64,000 nt of DNA from an uncultured Aliivibrio sp. (GTDB lineage Bacteria > Pseudomonadota > Gammaproteobacteria > Enterobacterales > Vibrionaceae): assembly GCF_946479765.1 (NCBI RefSeq), contig NZ_CAMLHO010000007.1:1-64000 (forward strand), read 5' to 3'. How positions within the stretch are numbered: position 1 is the first letter of the stretch; each line of letters starts with the position of its first letter. The notes below the pieces were generated by a model. It searched no databases, was not told where the DNA came from, and worked only from the letters and a program-made list of their open reading frames with translations. Below, piece by piece: positions 1-10,484 of the stretch. The translations under genes were made by a program, and so were the position numbers.

Positions 1-52
1 CGCAACCTTGCCAAGGTTGAGGTCACGAGTTCGAGCCTCGTGTGTCGCTCCA
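1..52 (+). tRNA. glyV: tRNA-Gly (anticodon GCC), 3' part only
   Basis: This is the 3' two thirds of a glycine tRNA cut by the window edge. The anticodon stem pairs 3-7 with 15-19 around a 7-nt loop, with anticodon GCC at 10-12. The T arm pairs 25-29 with 37-41 around TTCGAGC, and the 3' acceptor strand is 42-48. The discriminator base is T49 and CCA is encoded at 50-52. The D arm and 5' acceptor strand lie before the window. In Escherichia coli a glyVXY tRNA array sits at the same place beside queG, so further copies may lie to the left. Confidence 0.93.
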
Positions 53-60
53 AATAAAAT

Positions 61-95
61 AAAAGCGCTGAATTATATTCAGCGCTTTTATTTTA
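61..95 (+). terminator. Rho-independent terminator of the tRNA-Gly unit
   Basis: A 13-bp perfect hairpin (61-73 pairs with 77-89, loop TAT) contains an AGCGCTGAA core and is followed by TATTTTATTT. It begins 8 nt after the tRNA CCA end. Confidence 0.9.
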
Positions 96-267
96 TTTAA
101 AATTAATGCTGTGAAGCATTAACCTCATAAAAAATTCTGCTCTTTTAGAACATTCTGATTCAAATATCAAACAAGAATCAAGCCGTCTATATTATCTATC
201 TGTATTTACCGTATTTCTCAATGATTTATGGCAACAGAGGAATAGTTATATGTGTTCATTACCATAT

Positions 268-317
268 AACTAACAGACTTATCCACACGTTAAATTTTGT
301 GGATAAGTCTGTTAGTT
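268..317. repeat. Perfect inverted repeat carrying two head-to-head consensus DnaA boxes
   Basis: Arms 268-287 and 298-317 are exact 20-bp reverse complements separated by a 10-nt AT-rich centre. Each arm contains the consensus DnaA box TTATCCACA: forward at 279-287 and reverse at 298-306. No T tract follows, so it does not look like an intrinsic terminator. It lies between tRNA-Gly and queG. Binding by DnaA and a datA-like role are inference; the repeat itself is seen directly. Confidence 0.85.
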
Positions 318-623
318 GTTTTGAAATGGCCTTATAAAAAAGAGATGGAATAAAGATCTTCTTTCTATTTAATGATCGTAGGTATTGTTGTTTTTATTTA
401 TCTACTTGATATTTAAGGATTTAATATTTTATATGCATTATTTTGAACGATTTGAAAGATCTTTTTGCTTGACTTCTTTGATCCTAATCATATTCCTGTC
501 TTGTGTTTAACTTTTATATTAATCATATTGTTTGCCTCACATAAAAATGTTTTCCACATTTATTACGATCAGCCTCTAATTTTATTTATAAGTAAAAAGC
601 GTAGCGTTATATGCTGTTGGGTA

Positions 624-1742
624 TTAGGCGTCTCTTGGTAAGCCTTTTTCTATAATGCGAATAAGGCGTTGCTCTTTTCTATTTTGATTTACTTGATGAG
701 ATTGCTGCTGCTCTATTGCCCAAAGAAGGTGAATATCTAAATTATCATCTAGGTTAAGTCGTTCATTAAGTGCAGAGATAATCTCACTAGAGTGAGGTGC
801 GTTTCCCATCGCAATAGATATATTACGTAACCATTGCAGGTGACCAATACGGCGAATGGCAGACCCTTCCATATTTTTTAAAAAGGTCGCTTCATCCCAA
901 GCAAAAAGAGAAAGTAAGTCTGAATTATCTAGTGACTCTCTACGATAAAAGTCACTTTGTTGTGTAATGTCTGCTTCGCGGTTCCAAGGGCAGACCAATT
1001 GGCAGTCATCACAGCCATAAATTCGATTTCCCATTAATGAACGGAATTCTTCGGGAATGACGTCACTGCTTTCAATAGTGAGATAGGAAATGCAGCGACG
1101 AGCATCAATAACGCCATTATCTAATATCGCATTAGTAGGGCAAGAAGTGATACAAGCTGTACATTTACCACATTGATTCTCAATTGGCTTATCAATAGGT
1201 AATGGGATATCAACTAATAACTCACCTAAGAAAAACCAAGAACCAGCATTTTTATCAAGTAATAGTGAGTGCTTCCCTGTCCAGCCGAGCCCTGCTTTTT
1301 CAGCTAAAGGTCTTTCTAGAATAGGAGCAGAATCCACAAACGGTCGATAACCGAGTAGTTCGACTTCCGCTTCAATTTTTTGACCTAGTTTCTTGAGTTG
1401 GTTTCGGATCAGCTTATGATAGTCACGACCTAGGGCATATCGACTAATATAAGCTTGAGTTGGATCGCTTAAATTACTAGCGAAACCTGCTTGGGGTGGA
1501 AGATAATCCATACGAGCACTAATGACTCGAATAGTGCCAGGGTGAAGTTCATCTGGTCTTGCTCTCATTACTCCATGGCGGGCCATCCAGTCCATAGAAC
1601 CGTGATAGCCAGCTTCAAGCCATTGCTCTAAAGCTGCTTCATGTTGAGACAGGTCAACGTCACAGATCCCAACTTTTTGAAAGCCAAGTTCCTGTGCCCA
1701 TACCTTGATGTTATTTGCGAGTGCTTGATAGTTAATTTTCAC
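624..1742 (-). CDS. queG: Epoxyqueuosine reductase QueG
   Basis: QueG carries out the last step of queuosine synthesis, reducing epoxyqueuosine to queuosine in tRNA with a cobalamin cofactor and two 4Fe-4S clusters. The 372-residue length fits the family. Two ferredoxin-type cysteine groups are visible: CGKCTACITSCPTNAI near residues 190-205, and CDDCQLVCPWN near 243-253. The C-terminal third looks like the HEAT-like repeat region of the family. The start ATG at 1742 gives the usual MKINYQ-type N terminus. It is transcribed toward the tRNA-Gly gene and diverges from tsaE. It is cytoplasmic and stands alone as a transcription unit. Confidence 0.96.
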   Translation of the reverse strand: MKINYQALANNIKVWAQELGFQKVGICDVDLSQHEAALEQWLEAGYHGSMDWMARHGVMRARPDELHPGTIRVISARMDYLPPQAGFASNLSDPTQAYISRYALGRDYHKLIRNQLKKLGQKIEAEVELLGYRPFVDSAPILERPLAEKAGLGWTGKHSLLLDKNAGSWFFLGELLVDIPLPIDKPIENQCGKCTACITSCPTNAILDNGVIDARRCISYLTIESSDVIPEEFRSLMGNRIYGCDDCQLVCPWNREADITQQSDFYRRESLDNSDLLSLFAWDEATFLKNMEGSAIRRIGHLQWLRNISIAMGNAPHSSEIISALNERLNLDDNLDIHLLWAIEQQQSHQVNQNRKEQRLIRIIEKGLPRDA

Positions 1743-1942
1743 AGAGAGATTACATTTTTTTATTACAGTATTATAAGTAAAAGTTTATCATATAGGATTG
1801 ATAAGACGTACTTCAATACGATTAAAAGGCATTGAATTAACGCAGACTATACAGACTTGTGTGTAAATGTTCAGAATATAAATTGTGAATCTAATACCAA
1901 GTCCATCATTTTAGACAATTAAAATAGTGAAATTAGTGAATA

Positions 1943-2407
1943 ATGGAACGCTTTGAATTTAATTTAGCTACTGAAGACGACACTGTTGAATTCGGTAGAC
2001 AGCTCTCTCAAGCTTGTACCCAACAAACCACCATTTTTCTACATGGTGATCTTGGTGCAGGGAAAACTACATTTAGCCGAGGCTTTATTCGCTCTTTGGG
2101 TCACGTAGGTAATGTGAAAAGTCCTACCTATACTTTAGTTGAGCCTTATGAATTGGATAAGTGGCAAGTGTATCATTTTGATCTCTACCGTTTAGCTGAT
2201 CCTGAAGAGTTAGAATTTATGGGGATCCGTGATTACTTTACTGATGATGCAATTTGTTTAGTTGAGTGGCCAGAGAGAGGCGAAGGGTTATTACCAAGTC
2301 CTGATATTGATATTGAACTTCGTTATGATGGTGAAGCTCGTCATGTTGTGATTACGGGTAATAATGAATATGGATGTAGTTTAGTGCAGCGGTTAGATTT
2401 GTGTTAA
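1943..2407 (+). CDS. tsaE: tRNA threonylcarbamoyladenosine biosynthesis ATPase TsaE
   Basis: TsaE is the P-loop ATPase that works with TsaB and TsaD to make t6A at position 37 of ANN-decoding tRNAs. The Walker A motif [13 protein letters not shown] is at about residues 35-47, followed by the family signatures [10 protein letters not shown] and HFDLYRL. The length of 154 residues is normal. It is the first gene of the amiB-mutL-miaA-hfq operon and overlaps amiB by 7 bp, so the two are probably translationally coupled. In E. coli, nnr (yjeF) lies between queG and tsaE; it is absent here. Confidence 0.96.
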
Positions 2408-4140
2408 TCGGTAAATATTTTCGAGTTTTATGGTATATGCTATTTGTTGTTTTATCGACAGGTAGCTTTTCTGTATTTGCTAATACGTTAGAGGGAGTAC
2501 GGGTTTGGCCTTCGCCAGATGAAACTCGTATTGTTATCGATCTGAATTCAGAAGCGAATTATAGCTACTTTACGTTGAGTAGCCCTTCTCGTTTGGTTGT
2601 CGATCTTAAAGATACTAATGTAAAAGCCAAGCTACCATTAAATGTAAAAGACAGTAATGTCTTAAGTAAAATCCGTAAGAGCTCTCCTCCTTCAAAGGGG
2701 ACGACTCGATTGGTTTTTGAGCTTAAGCATTCTGTGGTAGCTAAGTTATTTAAATTAGCACCTACGCCTGGGGGCCAATACGGTCACCGTTTAGTGATGG
2801 ACTTGCCTCATACATCAACATCAGGATCTAAGCCAACGCCAAGCAAACCAACGAAACCTTCAAAACCTATAATCAACTCTACTATGAACCACATTGTAGG
2901 TAATGGAGAGATTGTTATTGCCATTGATGCAGGACATGGTGGTGAAGATCCAGGTTCTATTGGTCCAACAAGAAAATACGAAAAGCACGCCACGCTCGCT
3001 ATTTCAAAAAAAGTGGTTGCTCAAATAAATGCTCAGCCAGGTATGCGAGCAGTCATGACTCGTGGCGGCGATTATTTTGTTAATTTGAATAAGCGTACTG
3101 AGATTGCTCGAAAGAATAAATCTCACTTACTGGTTTCTATTCATGCTGATAGCTTTCGTTCTCCACAACCAAGAGGGGGATCTGTTTTTGTACTTAATAC
3201 TCGCAGAGCGAATACCGAAATTGGTCGTTGGGTAGAAAAACATGAGAAGCAATCGGAATTACTCGGTGGGGCAGGTGATGTACTTGCTAAAAACAGTAAT
3301 GATAAAAACGTAAGCCAGACGCTACTAGATCTACAGTTTAGCCATTCTCAAAAGGAAGGTTATAAGCTAGCTACGGATGTTCTTGCTGACATGGGGAAAG
3401 TGATTAAGCTTCATAAGAAAGCCCCAGTTAATGCAAGTTTGGCAGTATTAAAGTCACCGGATATCCCTTCTATTCTGATTGAAACGGGTTTTATATCTAA
3501 TCCAACAGAAGAGAAACAGCTTTTCCAACGTGGACATCAAGATAAAATTGCTCGTGCGATTTCAAAAGCGATCATTCGTTATCTTCATGAGAACCCACCA
3601 CAAGGAACCTTGCTTGCTGCACAAGATCAGCAGAGTAAGCATAAAGTGAGTTCTGGTGAATCATTGTCTTTAATTGCTAAAAAATATGGTACGACAACAG
3701 CGAAACTGAAGAGTGCAAATAAACTAAAGAGTGCAAGCTTAGCAGTTGGACAAGTATTAATAATCCCAAGCAATAAACCAGTTTATGTTGCACCTAAAGT
3801 GTCGACACCAAAAGCGAAATCGTCAGTGACACAATCACGTAAAACGATTACTCACACGGTTCGCTCTGGTGAATATTTAGGAAAAATAGCATCGAGATAT
3901 AAAGTATCTACCAGCAATATTCGTTCATTGAATAGACTTAAATCAGATACTTTGTTTGTCGGCCAAAGACTAAAAGTAAGCATTGTTGCTCCAATTCAAA
4001 AGCATACGGTGAAACGTGGTGAATTCTTAGGTAAAATTGCGACTAAATATGGAGTGTCTGTATCTAGCCTTAGAAAAACCAATAAATTGCGTTCAGATGA
4101 ATTGGCTGTAGGACAGGTGCTCGTTATACCAACCAGTTAA
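2401..4140 (+). CDS. amiB: N-acetylmuramoyl-L-alanine amidase AmiB with three LysM repeats
   Basis: This periplasmic zinc amidase splits septal peptidoglycan during daughter-cell separation. The start is GTG at 2401, inside the end of tsaE. The N-terminal hydrophobic segment (about residues 7-27) looks like a signal peptide. An AMIN domain covers about residues 29-125. The Amidase_3 catalytic domain covers about 170-400 and shows [18 protein letters not shown] and the catalytic-Glu motif IETGFISNP. Three LysM peptidoglycan-binding repeats begin near residues 412, 483 and 533. It is followed 13 bp later by mutL. Confidence 0.96.
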
Positions 4141-4153
4141 AAAGGACAGGGTT

Positions 4154-6145
4154 ATGCCAATTCAAATCTTACCAGCTCGATTAGCCAACCAAATAGCGGC
4201 TGGTGAGGTTGTGGAACGCCCTGCGTCTGTTGTTAAAGAGTTGGTCGAAAACAGTATCGATGCGGGAGCAACTCGCATCGATATTGATATTGAAAAAGGT
4301 GGAAGTAAGTTAATTCGTATTCGAGATAACGGCTCTGGTATCGCTAAAGAGGAGTTGACTCTAGCCTTGAGTCGTCATGCGACCTCTAAAATTACAACTC
4401 TTGATGACTTAGAAGCGATTGTTAGTTTAGGCTTTCGTGGTGAAGCGCTTGCTTCGATAAGTTCTGTATCCCGCCTCACATTAACCTCTCGTACGATAAC
4501 TCAAGAAGAAGCGTGGTCAGCGCACGCTGAAGGTCGAGATATGGAGGTAAAATTAAAACCAGCTGCTCACCCAATTGGCACCACGATAGATGTAGTTGAT
4601 CTTTTCTTTAATACGCCTGCTCGCCGAAAATTCCTTAAAGCCGATAAAACAGAATTTACTCATATTGATGAATTACTCAAACGTATTGCGCTTAGTCGAT
4701 TGGATATTACGATCACTCTACGTCATAACGGTAAACAAATACGTCAATATCGAGCTGCTCAAACTAAAACGCAAGTTGAAAAGCGCCTTGCAGCAGTCTG
4801 TGGTTCTAACTTTTTACAGCATGCATTAGAAGTAGAATTAAAGCATGGAGAGTTAATATTTCATGGTTGGATTTCTTCACCTGAAGGGGCGCGTGTGCAG
4901 GGCGATATTCAATATTGTTACGTGAATGGTCGTATGATGAAAGATAAATTGATCAATCATGCAATTCGACAAGGTTATGAATCTTCGTTACTGGCGAACC
5001 AATATGCAGCATATATTTTATTTATTGAGATAGATCCACATGATGTTGATGTGAATGTGCATCCAGCAAAACACGAAGTACGTTTTCATCAAGCACGCTT
5101 AGTTCATGATTTTATCTATCAAGCTATTTATGGCGCACTACAGCAAAGTGCCACGTTATCTTTACCTCAAGACGGTGAAAGTATCATTGAGGATAAGGAA
5201 GCGTATTTCCCACCAATGAAAGAGTATGTTCGTCAGCCTCAACAAGATTACTTTCAAAAAGAGAGTAGCGCGAAGGCTGAACAACTAAAAAATGCGGTGG
5301 ATTCAGCACCAAGTTATCCAAATAAAGCACCATCAGATTCTTGGGTATCTAGAGCGACAACACCTGTAACGTCATTTTCTTCAGCTAACATTAACAGTAG
5401 CCCTCGATCTTTTCAAAATGACAAGCCATCACAAAAAGAGCTGAATCAATATAAGGCGTTATTAACAACGAAGGACAGAGATGCGAAGTCATCATTTCAT
5501 CAAGTTAATGAAACGACGTTAAATACGGCTGAAAAAATGCCAACAATAGAAAAACATGTACCAACAATGAGTGCTGTTTCTGATGATAACGTATCATTAG
5601 GAAAGGTATTAAGTGTGGTAGAAAGAGTCTTTGCTTTGTTACAGCAGGGAGCTCAATTGCAATTGGTTGATTTACGTTATGCTGAATTCTTAAAAAGTTA
5701 CGGGCAACTTAATAGCATATATATTGAGCCATTAAGAGCTCAGCCTTTATTAATCCCACTTTCTGTCGGAGTTGAAGAGGGGATATGTAATAAAGTATTA
5801 GATTACGTTTCTTTCTTGAAACCTCTCGGTATTGATCTTAAAGTTAAAAATAGTACTAACGTGATCGTTATGGCGGTTTGTCAGCCGATCAGGCAGCAGA
5901 ATTTACAACAATTGATCCCGAATCTGTTAAGGTATCTAAACGACATCAATCCGTCACTTGAACAGGTAATAACTTGGCTTGCTCATCAGGTTCAACATGA
6001 AGAAGCAAATTATAGTACCGCTCAAGCGATACAATTAGTGATGGAATTAGAGCAGTTATGGGGAAGTAAGCTCCCTCAGTTTTATCAAAAACTGCTTAAA
6101 AACATCGATATTACTCAGGCGATACAAGCATTTAGTCATGAATAA
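4154..6145 (+). CDS. mutL: DNA mismatch repair protein MutL
   Basis: MutL is the ATPase that links MutS mismatch recognition to MutH nicking and UvrD unwinding; dam, also in this window, supplies the strand signal. The GHKL ATPase N terminus shows [18 protein letters not shown] and [14 protein letters not shown] low-complexity Ser/Gln-rich linker spans about residues 345-470, and a C-terminal dimerisation domain follows. The length of 663 residues is typical of Vibrionaceae. The start ATG follows AAAGGACAGG. The end overlaps miaA by 8 bp. Confidence 0.97.
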
Positions 6146-7070
6146 AGCATTACCACAAGCCATCTTCTTAATGGGACCGACTGCGTCAGGTAAAACAAAT
6201 TTAGCAATTGAATTGCGAAAACGTTTTCCTGTAGAGTTGATAAGCGTAGACTCAGCCCTTATTTATAAGGGTATGGATATTGGTACAGCAAAACCAAATG
6301 AAGCGGAACTTTTACAGGCTCCTCATCGTCTTATTGATATTCTAGAACCGACGGAAAGCTATTCAGTAGCAGAATTTCGTCGTGATGCGCTAAAAGAGAT
6401 GGAAGACATTGTTGCTCAAGGAAAGATACCTTTATTAGTCGGTGGTACAATGTTGTACTACAAAGCACTACTTGAAGGTCTTTCGCCATTACCAGCAGCG
6501 GATGCTGACATTAGAGCTCAAATTGAGCAAGAAGCGGAGAATCTTGGATGGGAGGCTATGCATGATCAATTAAAACAAATTGATCCTGTATCAGCAGAGA
6601 GAATTCATCCAAATGATCCACAACGACTTTCCCGAGCGTTGGAAGTATTTCGAATTTCGGGTAAAACATTAACCGAATTAACCCAGATTAAAGGGGAAGC
6701 TTTGCCTTATCAGGTGCATCAATTTGCGATAGCACCAAAAGAAAGGGCAGAAATTCACCGTCGTATTGAACTGCGATTTGAGAATATGATGGAAGCTGGT
6801 TTTGAAGAAGAGGCTCGTGCGTTATACGAACGAGAAGAGCTTCATACAGACTTACCTTCTATTCGATGCGTAGGCTATCGACAAATGTGGGACTATTTTG
6901 ACGGGGAATGCACATTAGATGACGCAATTTTTCGCGGAGTTTGTGCGACTCGTCAATTGGCCAAGCGACAAATTACCTGGCTACGTAGCTGGAAAGAATT
7001 AACTTGGCTGGATAGTGATGACATTGATGGTGCCCTACAGACGATCTCTGATCGTTTAGAGAAAAAATAA
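6138..7070 (+). CDS. miaA: tRNA dimethylallyltransferase MiaA
   Basis: MiaA transfers a dimethylallyl group to A37 of tRNAs that read UNN codons, the first step of ms2i6A synthesis. The P-loop [14 protein letters not shown] is near residues 12-25, followed by [18 protein letters not shown] and the tRNA-binding [14 protein letters not shown]. The length of 310 residues is normal. Its start lies within the end of mutL, which suggests translational coupling. It precedes hfq as in other gammaproteobacteria. Confidence 0.97.
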
Positions 7071-7173
7071 GCACAAAAACGTATCAATGTTGTTTAACTT
7101 CAGAGCATTTAGTCATAAGCTAAAGACTAATAGCTAAATAAAATTACAATTACAAACCAAAAAGGAAAAAAAA

Positions 7174-7440
7174 ATGGCTAAAGGACAATCTTTGCAAGAC
7201 CCATTTTTGAATGCACTGCGTCGTGAAAGGATTCCAGTGTCTATCTATTTAGTAAATGGGATTAAATTACAGGGACAAATCGAATCATTCGATCAATTTG
7301 TTATCCTATTGAAGAACACAGTAAATCAGATGGTATATAAGCATGCGATCTCTACTGTAGTTCCAGCTCGTGCTGTAAGCCATCACACTGCAAGTGATCG
7401 CCCACAAGACGAGCGTCCACAAGAAACAACAGAAGAATAG
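7174..7440 (+). CDS. hfq: RNA chaperone Hfq
   Basis: Hfq is a hexameric Sm-like protein that pairs small RNAs with mRNA targets. The Sm1 motif (about residues 8-50, including [20 protein letters not shown] and [11 protein letters not shown]) and the Sm2 motif [12 protein letters not shown] are intact. The C-terminal tail is short and acidic, as in vibrios; the total is 88 residues. The SD is AAAAGGAAA just upstream. The 103-bp gap from miaA may hold its own promoter, since hfq commonly has several. Confidence 0.97.
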
Positions 7441-7484
7441 TCCTATTCTATTATTGAATAGATGGCCTATTAAGGAGTTAATGC

Positions 7485-8324
7485 TTGTTTGACCGTTATG
7501 AATCCGGTGAACAGGCTATTCTTGTGCATATTAACTTCACTTATAAAGGGGAGTTGGAAGATCTCGACGAATGCAAAATGTTGGTATCTTCTGCGGAGAT
7601 AAACACATTAGCTGTTGTGAAGGGAACCCGTCAATCTCCACTCCCTAAATATTATGTAGGTGAGGGTAAGGCTCTCGAAATTGCTGAGCCAGGATCAGAG
7701 CTGAAATCCCAACTGTTTGCTACGCTCGATCCTACGCTACGTAAGATTGAAGTTGCAGATGTGGGTACTTCAATACTTGTTGATACCGTCGGTTTTATCC
7801 ATCATTTACCCCATGATCTTGTTGCTGCCTTTAAAGGCAACACAGCAAGAAACGCAAGAAGCTAATATCTTGTTACATGTTGTCGATGCCAGTGATGAGC
7901 GTTTTCGTGAGAATATTGAAGCAGTAGATATGTTCTTGAAGAGATAGATGCCCATGAGGTGCCTTATCTTCTCGTAATGAATAAGATTGATAACTTAGAA
8001 GATCAACAACCACGAATTGAACGTGATGAGGAAGGGGTTCCTCAATGTGTTTGGGTTTCAGCAATGGACGGTCAGGGCATTGATTTACTTTTTCAAGCAT
8101 TAACGGAACGATTAGCAGGACAAATGGTAGAGCATACATTGTTATTACCACCTGAGTTGGTTGGGTGTTTTCGAAGTAAGTTCTTTCAAATGCATAGCAT
8201 TATAAAAGAAGAATATCAGGATGATGGCAGCTTGCTTATTGATATACGTATGCAGCAAGTTGATTGGTCTAAATTAGAAAAACGTGAAGAGACTCCGTTA
8301 AGTCATTTTTTAATGATGCAATGA
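7485..8324 (+). pseudogene. hflX: Ribosome-associated GTPase HflX, degraded (internal deletion and two frameshifts)
   Basis: Intact HflX is a GTPase of about 430 residues that splits stalled ribosomes. Here the N-terminal part (7485 to about 7690, MFDRYESGEQ to YYVGEGKALEIAE) is joined directly to QLFATLDPTLRK at about 7710. About 160 residues are missing, including the Walker A/G1 and G2 motifs. An extra G at 7837/7838 then shifts the frame (the sequence continues KATQQETQEANILLHVVDASDE in the next frame). A base missing near 7932 returns it to the first frame (LEEIDAHEVP, NKID), which runs to a stop at 8324. A stop codon lies at 7863-7865. The three lesions and the lost P-loop make a functional product very unlikely. 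The SD (TAAGGAG) and TTG/ATG start region remain. Confidence 0.93.
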
Positions 8325-8370
8325 GAGTACACAGAATTCTTTATCTTCATAATTACTTTGGAGTTTTCTA

Positions 8371-9597
8371 ATGGCGTGGAATGAGCCTGGAAATAATAAC
8401 AATAACGACAACAGCAAGAGTGGCGGTGGCGATAATAAAGACCCTTGGGGTAATAAAAATCGTGGCGGTCGTGATCAAGGTCCACCAGATCTTGATGAAG
8501 TATTTAACAAGCTAAGTCAAAAACTGAGCGGTAAGTTCGGTGGTGGCAATAAGGGCGGAAACAATAAAGGTGGCAGTGGCTTACCTTCATTTGGTAATGG
8601 TGGTGCAATTGGCCTAGGCCTTATCGCCGTTGTTGCCATTGGTATTTGGGTTTTCTCTGGTTTCTATACGATTGGTGAAAGTGATCGTGGTGTGGTTCTG
8701 CGTTTAGGGAAATACGATCGCATGGTTGATCCAGGTCTAAACTGGAAACCAACGTTTATTGACCAAGTAACACCAGTAAATATTCAAGCTATTCGTTCAT
8801 TAAACTCAAAAGGTTTAATGCTAACGAAAGATGAGAATGTAGTTACGGTTGAAATGGGTGTTCAATATCGTGTTGCGGATGCAAGAAAGTATCTGTACAC
8901 CGTAGTCAATGCTGATGATAGTTTACGTCAAGCGACTGATTCTGCGCTTCGTGCGGTAATTGGTGATGCGAAAATGGATGACATTTTGACCAGTGGTCGT
9001 CAAGTGATCCGTCAACGTACTCAAGAGACTCTGAATCGTATTGTTGATAAATATGATATGGGGTTAATAGTCGTTGATGTCAACTTCCAACTTGCTCGTC
9101 CACCAGAACAAGTGAAAGCGTCATTTGATGATGCTATCGCAGCTCGAGAAGATGAAGAGCGTTTCATTCGTGAAGCAGAAGCATACAGTAATGATATTCT
9201 TCCTAAAGCGACAGGTCGTGCTGAACGTCTGAAGAAAGAAGCTCAAGGTTACACAGAACGTACAGTTAACGGAGCGATTGGTCAAATTGCTCAGTTTGAA
9301 AAGCTATTACCTGAATATAATAAAGCACCTGAAGTCACACGTACTCGTTTGTATCTTGATACGATGGAGCGTGTATACAGCAACACAAGTAAGGTTCTTA
9401 TTGATTCTGAATCTAATGGTAACTTGTTATATCTTCCATTAGATAAAATGATGGGTAGCCAAGGTTCTGTTAAGTCAGCTCCTCAAACATCAACGTCATC
9501 ATCTAAAAATTATGATTTTGAGTTAGAGAAGAACGGACAACCTGAACCAAAAACAAATACTACAGGTCGAACTACAACTCGTGAAGGGAGATATTAA
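8371..9597 (+). CDS. hflK: FtsH protease modulator HflK
   Basis: HflK forms, with HflC, a large inner-membrane SPFH assembly that surrounds and restrains the FtsH protease. The N terminus is rich in Gly, Asn and Asp (residues 1-70). One membrane segment follows at about 78-95, then the SPFH/band-7 domain facing the periplasm, and a Ser/Thr-rich tail. The length of 408 residues is typical. The SD TTGGAG precedes the ATG. It lies 46 bp after the hflX pseudogene and 2 bp before hflC, so hflK and hflC are certainly co-transcribed. Confidence 0.97.
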   Translation: MAWNEPGNNNNNDNSKSGGGDNKDPWGNKNRGGRDQGPPDLDEVFNKLSQKLSGKFGGGNKGGNNKGGSGLPSFGNGGAIGLGLIAVVAIGIWVFSGFYTIGESDRGVVLRLGKYDRMVDPGLNWKPTFIDQVTPVNIQAIRSLNSKGLMLTKDENVVTVEMGVQYRVADARKYLYTVVNADDSLRQATDSALRAVIGDAKMDDILTSGRQVIRQRTQETLNRIVDKYDMGLIVVDVNFQLARPPEQVKASFDDAIAAREDEERFIREAEAYSNDILPKATGRAERLKKEAQGYTERTVNGAIGQIAQFEKLLPEYNKAPEVTRTRLYLDTMERVYSNTSKVLIDSESNGNLLYLPLDKMMGSQGSVKSAPQTSTSSSKNYDFELEKNGQPEPKTNTTGRTTTREGRY

Positions 9598-9599
9598 TC

Positions 9600-10484
9600 A
9601 TGCGTAAGTTAATGATCCCAACGCTTATCGTTGTTATCGCTATTTTCTTAATGTCACTGTTTGTGATCCCAGAAGGTGAACGCGGTATCGTTACTCGATT
9701 TGGTCGTTTGATTAAAGACGATAACGAAATTACACGTATCTACGAACCTGGTTTGCATTTCAAAATGCCAATGTTCGATCGTGTTAATACGTTAGATGCT
9801 CGTATTCAAACAATGGATGATCAATCAGACCGTTTCGTAACATCAGAGAAAAAAGACGTTATTATCGATTCATACGTTAAATGGAAGATCAAAGATTTTG
9901 GTCAATTCTATCTAGCGACTGGCGGTGGTAACATCTTAACGGCAGAGTCACTATTACAACGTCGTGTATCTGATGGCCTACGAGCTGAGATTGGTAGTAA
10001 AACCGTGAAAGAGATCGTTTCTGAGAAGCGTGAACAAGTAATGGCGACAGTACTTTTAGATTCTCAAGAAGGTACGGGTGATTTAGGTATTGAAGTGATT
10101 GATTTACGAATCAAGAAAATCAATTTACCTGAAGAGATCTCTGAATCGATTTACCGTCGTATGCGTGCAGAGCGTGAAGCTGTAGCTCGTAAATTACGTT
10201 CTCAAGGTCGTGAGAAAGCCGAGGTTATTCGTGCTCAATCAGAACTTGAAGTAGCGACTATTATTGCAGAAGCAGATAAGACCGCACAAATTACTCGTGG
10301 TGATGCGGATGCGAAAGTTGCAAAACTGTATGCAGATACGTTTAACAAAGAGCCTGAATTCTTTAGTTTTATTCGTTCATTACGTGCATATGAAAAATCA
10401 TTCAACAGTAAGAATGACATCTTAGTACTTGATCCTAAGACTGACTTCTTCAAATACATGAATGATCCAATGGGTGGAAAATAA
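9600..10484 (+). CDS. hflC: FtsH protease modulator HflC
   Basis: HflC is the partner of HflK in the membrane complex that controls FtsH. An uncleaved N-terminal membrane anchor (about residues 4-22) is followed by VIPEGERGIVTRFGR, the start of the SPFH domain, and a long charged helix near residues 185-240. The length of 294 residues is close to other vibrios. It ends before a terminator with a TTCG loop at 10517-10546. Confidence 0.97.
   Translation: MRKLMIPTLIVVIAIFLMSLFVIPEGERGIVTRFGRLIKDDNEITRIYEPGLHFKMPMFDRVNTLDARIQTMDDQSDRFVTSEKKDVIIDSYVKWKIKDFGQFYLATGGGNILTAESLLQRRVSDGLRAEIGSKTVKEIVSEKREQVMATVLLDSQEGTGDLGIEVIDLRIKKINLPEEISESIYRRMRAEREAVARKLRSQGREKAEVIRAQSELEVATIIAEADKTAQITRGDADAKVAKLYADTFNKEPEFFSFIRSLRAYEKSFNSKNDILVLDPKTDFFKYMNDPMGGK

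Follow-up and report, generated by a model that had tools for sequence, protein, structure and literature searches.

What is a perfect inverted repeat made of consensus DnaA boxes doing between a tRNA gene and queG in an Aliivibrio genome? In the stretch of 64,000 nucleotides analysed here (the window), a preliminary description had singled out a 20-bp inverted repeat at 268-317, and the sequence bears this out in each particular, the arms (268-287 and 298-317) being exact reverse complements, the gap between them 10 bp, and TTATCCACA lying inside each. The feature so delimited is too small, however, as the element runs past the palindrome to about position 558. Our analysis suggests that the locus is probably the Vibrionaceae counterpart of E. 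coli datA and would carry out DDAH through opposed double boxes together with IHF.

The opposed DnaA boxes and their conservation

The repeat at 268-317 can be read as two mirrored double DnaA boxes. On the plus strand, a weak DnaA-like box, TAACTAACA (267-275), stands 3 bp before the first strong box, the consensus TTATCCACA at 279-287, and these two are the counterparts of boxes 7 and 2, respectively, of E. coli datA. On the minus strand, a second, opposed consensus box (298-306), which has no equivalent beside box 2 in E. coli datA, is accompanied 3 bp to its outside by the weak DnaA-like box CAACTAACA (310-318). The left half consequently reads TAACTAACA-gac-TTATCCACA; taken from the opposite strand, the right half is CAACTAACA-gac-TTATCCACA. 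The 20-bp arms are accounted for by these putative mirrored units, and they measure 20 bp rather than 21 because the two double boxes differ only at their first base. The weak boxes are also apparent across the family: in 63 Vibrionaceae loci the 9-mer at 3 bp matched TTATCCACA at 5.7 of 9 positions on average on the left side and the consensus at 6.6 of 9 on the right, whereas 9-mers at other spacings in the same loci matched at only 2.5 of 9.

Two perfect boxes inside one perfect palindrome had been considered unlikely to arise by chance, and this holds for the opposed pair, which is rare, but not for TTATCCACA by itself, which was seen twice in the 64 kb against 0.74 expected, a count reached in 20 of 100 shuffles. 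In a pattern search, TTATCCACA-N9/10-TGTGGATAA had a single occurrence in the genome to which the window belongs. Of 296 Vibrionaceae genomes, 208 carry this opposed pair, whereas a backward control pattern occurs in 2; each positive genome has one pair except G256, which has two. The pair arose in none of 14,600 Markov-resampled regions of 500 bp. Additionally, the idea of an ordinary dispersed repeat was rejected, since positions 150-600 of the window, used as a query against the genome, matched only themselves and their own reverse strand, that is, a single copy. Two other groupings of TTATCCACA were observed in the same genome. In one (L166, G000:C107:3076-3124), on a small contig whose repeated sequence we take to be integron-attC-like, two boxes face away from each other. 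The other (L165, G000:C1:200695-200883) contains three boxes and many GATC sites between genes that are presumably mioC-like and gidA/mnmG-like, and is probably oriC of chromosome 1.

The locus was present in 13 of 14 Aliivibrio genomes (none in G009). Free mutation of the arms in sister strains, which the preliminary description had set against a DnaA role, was observed for the outer arm bases but hardly for the boxes, both strong boxes being exact in 12 of the 13 loci. For the wider family we used 80 named queG loci, 74 from Vibrionaceae and 6 from Pseudoalteromonas; one of the former (L102) ends after 65 bp, which leaves 73 usable. An exact opposed pair was found in 63 of these 73, with a gap of 10 bp in 52 and of 9 bp in 11, and allowing one mismatch raised the count to 72 of 73, the gap being 9 or 10 bp throughout; the sole exception without a pair is L120, from Photobacterium. 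No box was detected at any of the six Pseudoalteromonas queG loci, one of which comprises only 142 bp of sequence. Furthermore, across 30 equally spaced loci the element held 1.83 bits per column within its three boxes, compared with 0.82 elsewhere.

Setting of the locus and resemblance to E. coli datA

The contig (C7) begins at window base 1 with the 3' part of a tRNA gene on the plus strand (1-51), which is tRNA-Gly in relatives. Rfam gave a tRNA match at 1-49 with the 5' end cut and 28.3 bits, slightly below the gathering score of 29, and ARAGORN found no tRNA in positions 1-10000, the gene being cut by the contig edge. At the family loci a tRNA-Gly(gcc) occupies this place, often as an array and in some mixed with tRNA-Met; at least one tRNA was found at 65 of the 74 named Vibrionaceae loci, the other nine regions spanning only 65-639 bp. 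Directly after the tRNA lies a 22-bp hairpin on the plus strand (52-98; inverted repeat I2), 100% complementary and conserved in the genus alignment, which is a probable terminator or attenuator of the tRNA operon; a consensus terminator scan did not score it as a terminator. On the far side, queG (624-1742, minus strand; a match to E. coli queG) turns its 3' end towards the site, and queG relatives were found in 35 of 41 genomes.

Between the palindrome and queG, three further parts of the element were recognised. The first is an IHF-like site, TATCAAGTAGATA, at 399-411 on the minus strand, one mismatch from WATCAANNNNTTR and at +120 from the first strong box. With up to one mismatch allowed, 44 of 63 Vibrionaceae loci have a site on this strand, matched by its letters, between +116 and +123, whereas other windows of eight offsets contained one in 0-11 of the 63; the remaining 19 have none within one mismatch at +116 to +123. 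The second is a strongly conserved block of the genus alignment (455-515), with GATC at 458 and 480, 22 bp apart, and a DnaA-box-like TTAAACACA on the minus strand at 502-510. In the family, 60 of 63 loci have a GATC between +176 and +186 and another 22 bp further along, and 56 of 63 have TGTGNTTAA between +214 and +228. Apart from the boxes, few stretches are as well conserved as this GATC/TGTGNTTAA block (about +176 to +235), which possibly reflects SeqA/Dam or a further DnaA box. The third is the DnaA box TTTTCCACA (550-558, plus strand), the counterpart by position of E. coli datA box 3, kept in 13 of 13 Aliivibrio loci; in the family, 60 of 63 loci have it between +262 and +276.

E. coli datA is reported to lie between glyV-glyX-glyY and queG, and near oriC (PMC5742627); DnaA and IHF there promote DnaA-ATP hydrolysis (DDAH), for which DnaA boxes 2, 3 and 7 plus IHF are needed (PMC5742627). 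The Vibrionaceae site likewise lies between tRNA-Gly genes and queG, and has the same order of a double box, a minus-strand IHF-like site and a third plus-strand box. It also shares the weak box followed after 3 bp by TTATCCACA; the corresponding E. coli double box, in which a weak box stands 3 bp ahead of the strong box 2, reads TTGTAAACAgagTTATCCACA in Table 1 of PMC11317965, which also reports that E. coli DnaA prefers box pairs spaced 2-3 bp. Origin proximity is a further likeness, as the locus is 167-318 kb from dnaA in nine Vibrionaceae relatives with both on one contig, the contigs being taken as circular; in the window's own genome dnaA and the site are on different contigs, so that these distances are those of the relatives. 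In addition, the genome encodes IHF alpha and a DnaA identical to that of E. coli at 382 of 467 positions, in which R281, R285, L290 and R334 are kept, the residues reported as required for DDAH (PMC5742627).

There are also differences from E. coli datA. The Vibrionaceae site has the second, opposed double box 9-10 bp from the first; its spacings are longer, the most frequent offsets being +122 for the IHF-like site and +275 for the third box, where E. coli has +65 and +162; and the conserved GATC/TGTGNTTAA block precedes the third box, whereas E. coli datA has instead an opposed near-box 3 bp past box 3 (TTATTCACA-AGC-TGTGGATGA). The essential datA boxes of E. coli are reported to share one direction (PMC5742627); the three positional counterparts in Vibrionaceae share one as well, but the added opposed strong box does not.

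Outside the family, the core AACAGASTTATCCACA was found in 107 of 295 genomes of the order. Among 30 of these loci that were inspected, queG adjoins 16, tRNA-Gly alone adjoins one, and 13 have neither queG nor tRNA-Gly within 1.5 kb. The loci in datA position, E. coli included, make 19 entries and 18 distinct places (L028 and L137 are one place); the core was the basis of selection, except for L028 and E. coli, which were picked by synteny, so that the first box is mostly there by construction, which does not apply to the other features. In all of these loci the next plus-strand box lies at +160 to +165, and in 10 an IHF-like site lies at +65. An opposed box with up to one mismatch in the next 29 bp was found in none of the 18, E. 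coli included, and because none of these others has it, the opposed double box beside box 2 is a Vibrionaceae trait in our sample. As a separate observation, a third exact AACAGASTTATCCACA lies outside the palindrome at G000:C1:123790-123805, and many Vibrionaceae entries likewise show a second copy.

The preliminary description had proposed that DnaA could bind here cooperatively, and a cooperative DnaA site remains a well supported prediction in view of conservation, fixed spacing, weak flanking boxes and the datA position. That description had seen the boxes but not that the locus lies between tRNA-Gly and queG; it also overlooked the third box, the IHF-like site and the likeness to datA. 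In the model that we infer for DnaA and IHF binding, ATP hydrolysis and timing, DnaA would bind both double boxes, which oppose each other and each consist of a strong TTATCCACA flanked on its outer side, at 3 bp, by a weak box. IHF would bend the DNA about 120 bp downstream and so recruit the DnaA that occupies TTTTCCACA, about 270 bp downstream. ATP-DnaA assembled in this way would hydrolyse its ATP (DDAH), which would curb re-initiation after replication of this origin-proximal locus. Transcription reading through from the tRNA-Gly operon could then remove IHF and reset the site, as reported for E. coli, where tRNA-Gly read-through dislodges IHF from datA; the tRNA-Gly arrangement underlying it also exists at the Vibrionaceae locus. 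Several features count against the datA reading: the mirror box departs from the one-direction rule reported for essential datA boxes, spacings exceed those of E. coli, the window's IHF-like site carries one mismatch and 19 of 63 loci have none within one mismatch at that place, the Pseudoalteromonas queG loci are boxless, and 13 of 30 core loci are away from queG and tRNA-Gly.

Alternative roles for the boxes and the palindrome

The same consensus boxes clustered near the origin could also constitute a pure DnaA titration site, without faster ATP hydrolysis and with the IHF-like site merely stabilising binding, and datA itself was originally described as a titration site. We consider this rather unlikely for the Vibrionaceae locus, as titration by itself would need no third box, no IHF-like site and no family-wide fixed spacings.

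Opposed boxes are known as well from the DARS sites of E. coli, where they drive ADP release, and a DARS-like reactivation of DnaA, with two ADP-DnaA molecules meeting head to head at the opposed boxes and dropping their ADP, would account for the mirror arrangement. In the E. coli DARS cores, boxes I and II are opposed and the AAA+ contact is head to head, and the DARS1/DARS2 cores share with our site a weak box 3 bp outside one of the opposed boxes, DARS1 reading TTATCCACT-N5-TGTGGATAA-N3-weak box. In E. coli, however, the gap is 5 bp and the neighbours are uvrB and mutH, whereas the gap is 10 bp in the window and 9 or 10 bp in 72 loci, about half a helical turn away, and the setting is that of datA. 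The genome, moreover, has a separate DARS1-like core with a 5-bp gap, TTATCCACT-N5-TGTGGATAA-N3-TGTGTTAAT (L172, G000:C75:162-184), upstream of uvrB as in E. coli, so that our site is not a displaced DARS1. A DARS identity was rejected on these two grounds, the differing gap and the separate core, and a reactivating function appears improbable. At least one further E. coli-type DnaA-regulating site seems, from its sequence, to be present in this genome, and DARS-like sites in V. cholerae are mentioned in PMC6090056.

The trigger of chromosome 2 replication in V. cholerae, crtS, is likewise a regulatory replication site on chromosome 1. Its enhancer activity is reported to be independent of DnaA, with a minimal 70 bp at 818.0 kb in V. 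cholerae; a crtS identity was set aside solely by this published position and DnaA independence. We take chrI-4 of the V. cholerae enhancer paper to be crtS.

Lastly, the repeat might be maintained as a palindrome, either as a hairpin that terminates or attenuates transcription between the tRNA-Gly operon and queG or as a structural element in the DNA. Folded as RNA, positions 260-325 of the window give -32.6 kcal/mol compared with -8.6 for shuffles, and in the six Aliivibrio loci with perfect arms the base adjacent to the boxes is C or G in both arms together; this joint C/G change and the stable fold are what favour the palindrome as such. The preliminary description had discounted a terminator for want of a T tract, which was not quite correct, since the right arm is followed by GTTTTGAAAT with a short T run (GTTTTG), although a terminator scan of positions 1-640 returned nothing, its loop range being 3-8, in which a 10-base loop could not score. 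Against a terminator, this T run is short, the tRNA already has the hairpin at 52-98, and 55 of 63 loci keep the boxes but show no pairing past these 9 bp. The terminator is weakened by this missing conservation of the outer arms, the scan being blind to the 10-base loop, and we regard it as very improbable. Rfam matches to the hairpin (microRNA-type and snoRNA) were all below gathering scores and were taken as chance.

Among the 63 loci with an exact pair, complementarity past the boxes amounts to 0 bp in those 55, 2 bp in 3 and 11 bp in 5, and the long palindrome dissolves because the letters of the weak boxes differ between clades. The conserved unit is the boxes and not a cruciform, since the 20-bp arms are perfect in only 6 of 13 Aliivibrio loci, with 2 to 5 mismatches in the other 7. 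Selection for a palindromic DNA structure, such as the cruciform whose extrusion the preliminary description suggested, has those six perfect loci in its favour but is scarcely credible, as in most of Vibrionaceae the palindrome is not conserved past the 9-bp boxes.

DnaA inactivation in Vibrionaceae

Hda is the main inactivator of DnaA in E. coli. Using the Hda model TIGR03420, for which E. coli served as positive control, we found a match above cut-off in 1 of 296 Vibrionaceae genomes in a stricter search; for the 21 genomes listed, this search scored 9 candidates each. When all candidates were scored, 2 of 21 genomes were above cut-off, G017 from Vibrionaceae and G034 from another family; in the other 19, DnaA itself scored about 126-133 bits and further matches reached at most 34 bits. 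If this absence of Hda holds, the datA-type site may matter more in Vibrionaceae than datA does in E. coli. The link between Hda and the mirror box is correlative and confounded by common descent, and both traits may follow the family tree. In its strict form, that there is no Hda and hence a mirror box, it is not supported, as the Hda-bearing G017 keeps a degenerate opposed pair. Furthermore, the DnaA of the window's genome keeps the domain IV stretch HSLPEI, which contains a Leu-Pro pair, and binding of Hda is reported to involve a Leu-Pro pair of DnaA; its retention speaks, weakly, against a long-standing loss of Hda. It is conceivable, although we think it doubtful, that RIDA is missing in most Vibrionaceae and that the enlarged datA-type site, with opposed DnaA filaments face to face, is the main off-switch for DnaA-ATP. 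If true, the division of labour would be opposite to that of E. coli, where RIDA dominates.

While datA has been dissected in E. coli, no counterpart from a two-chromosome bacterium appeared in the portions of the literature examined, and no description of a Vibrio datA was found in the literature searched, which mostly did not extend to subscription papers. We call the locus a Vibrionaceae-type datA variant, a predicted site with a mirror box. Its different architecture, together with the apparent lack of Hda, makes it testable which parts of datA are essential and also by what means a cell that may lack RIDA turns off DnaA-ATP, and it offers a defined target in a laboratory organism, the squid symbiont A. 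fischeri.
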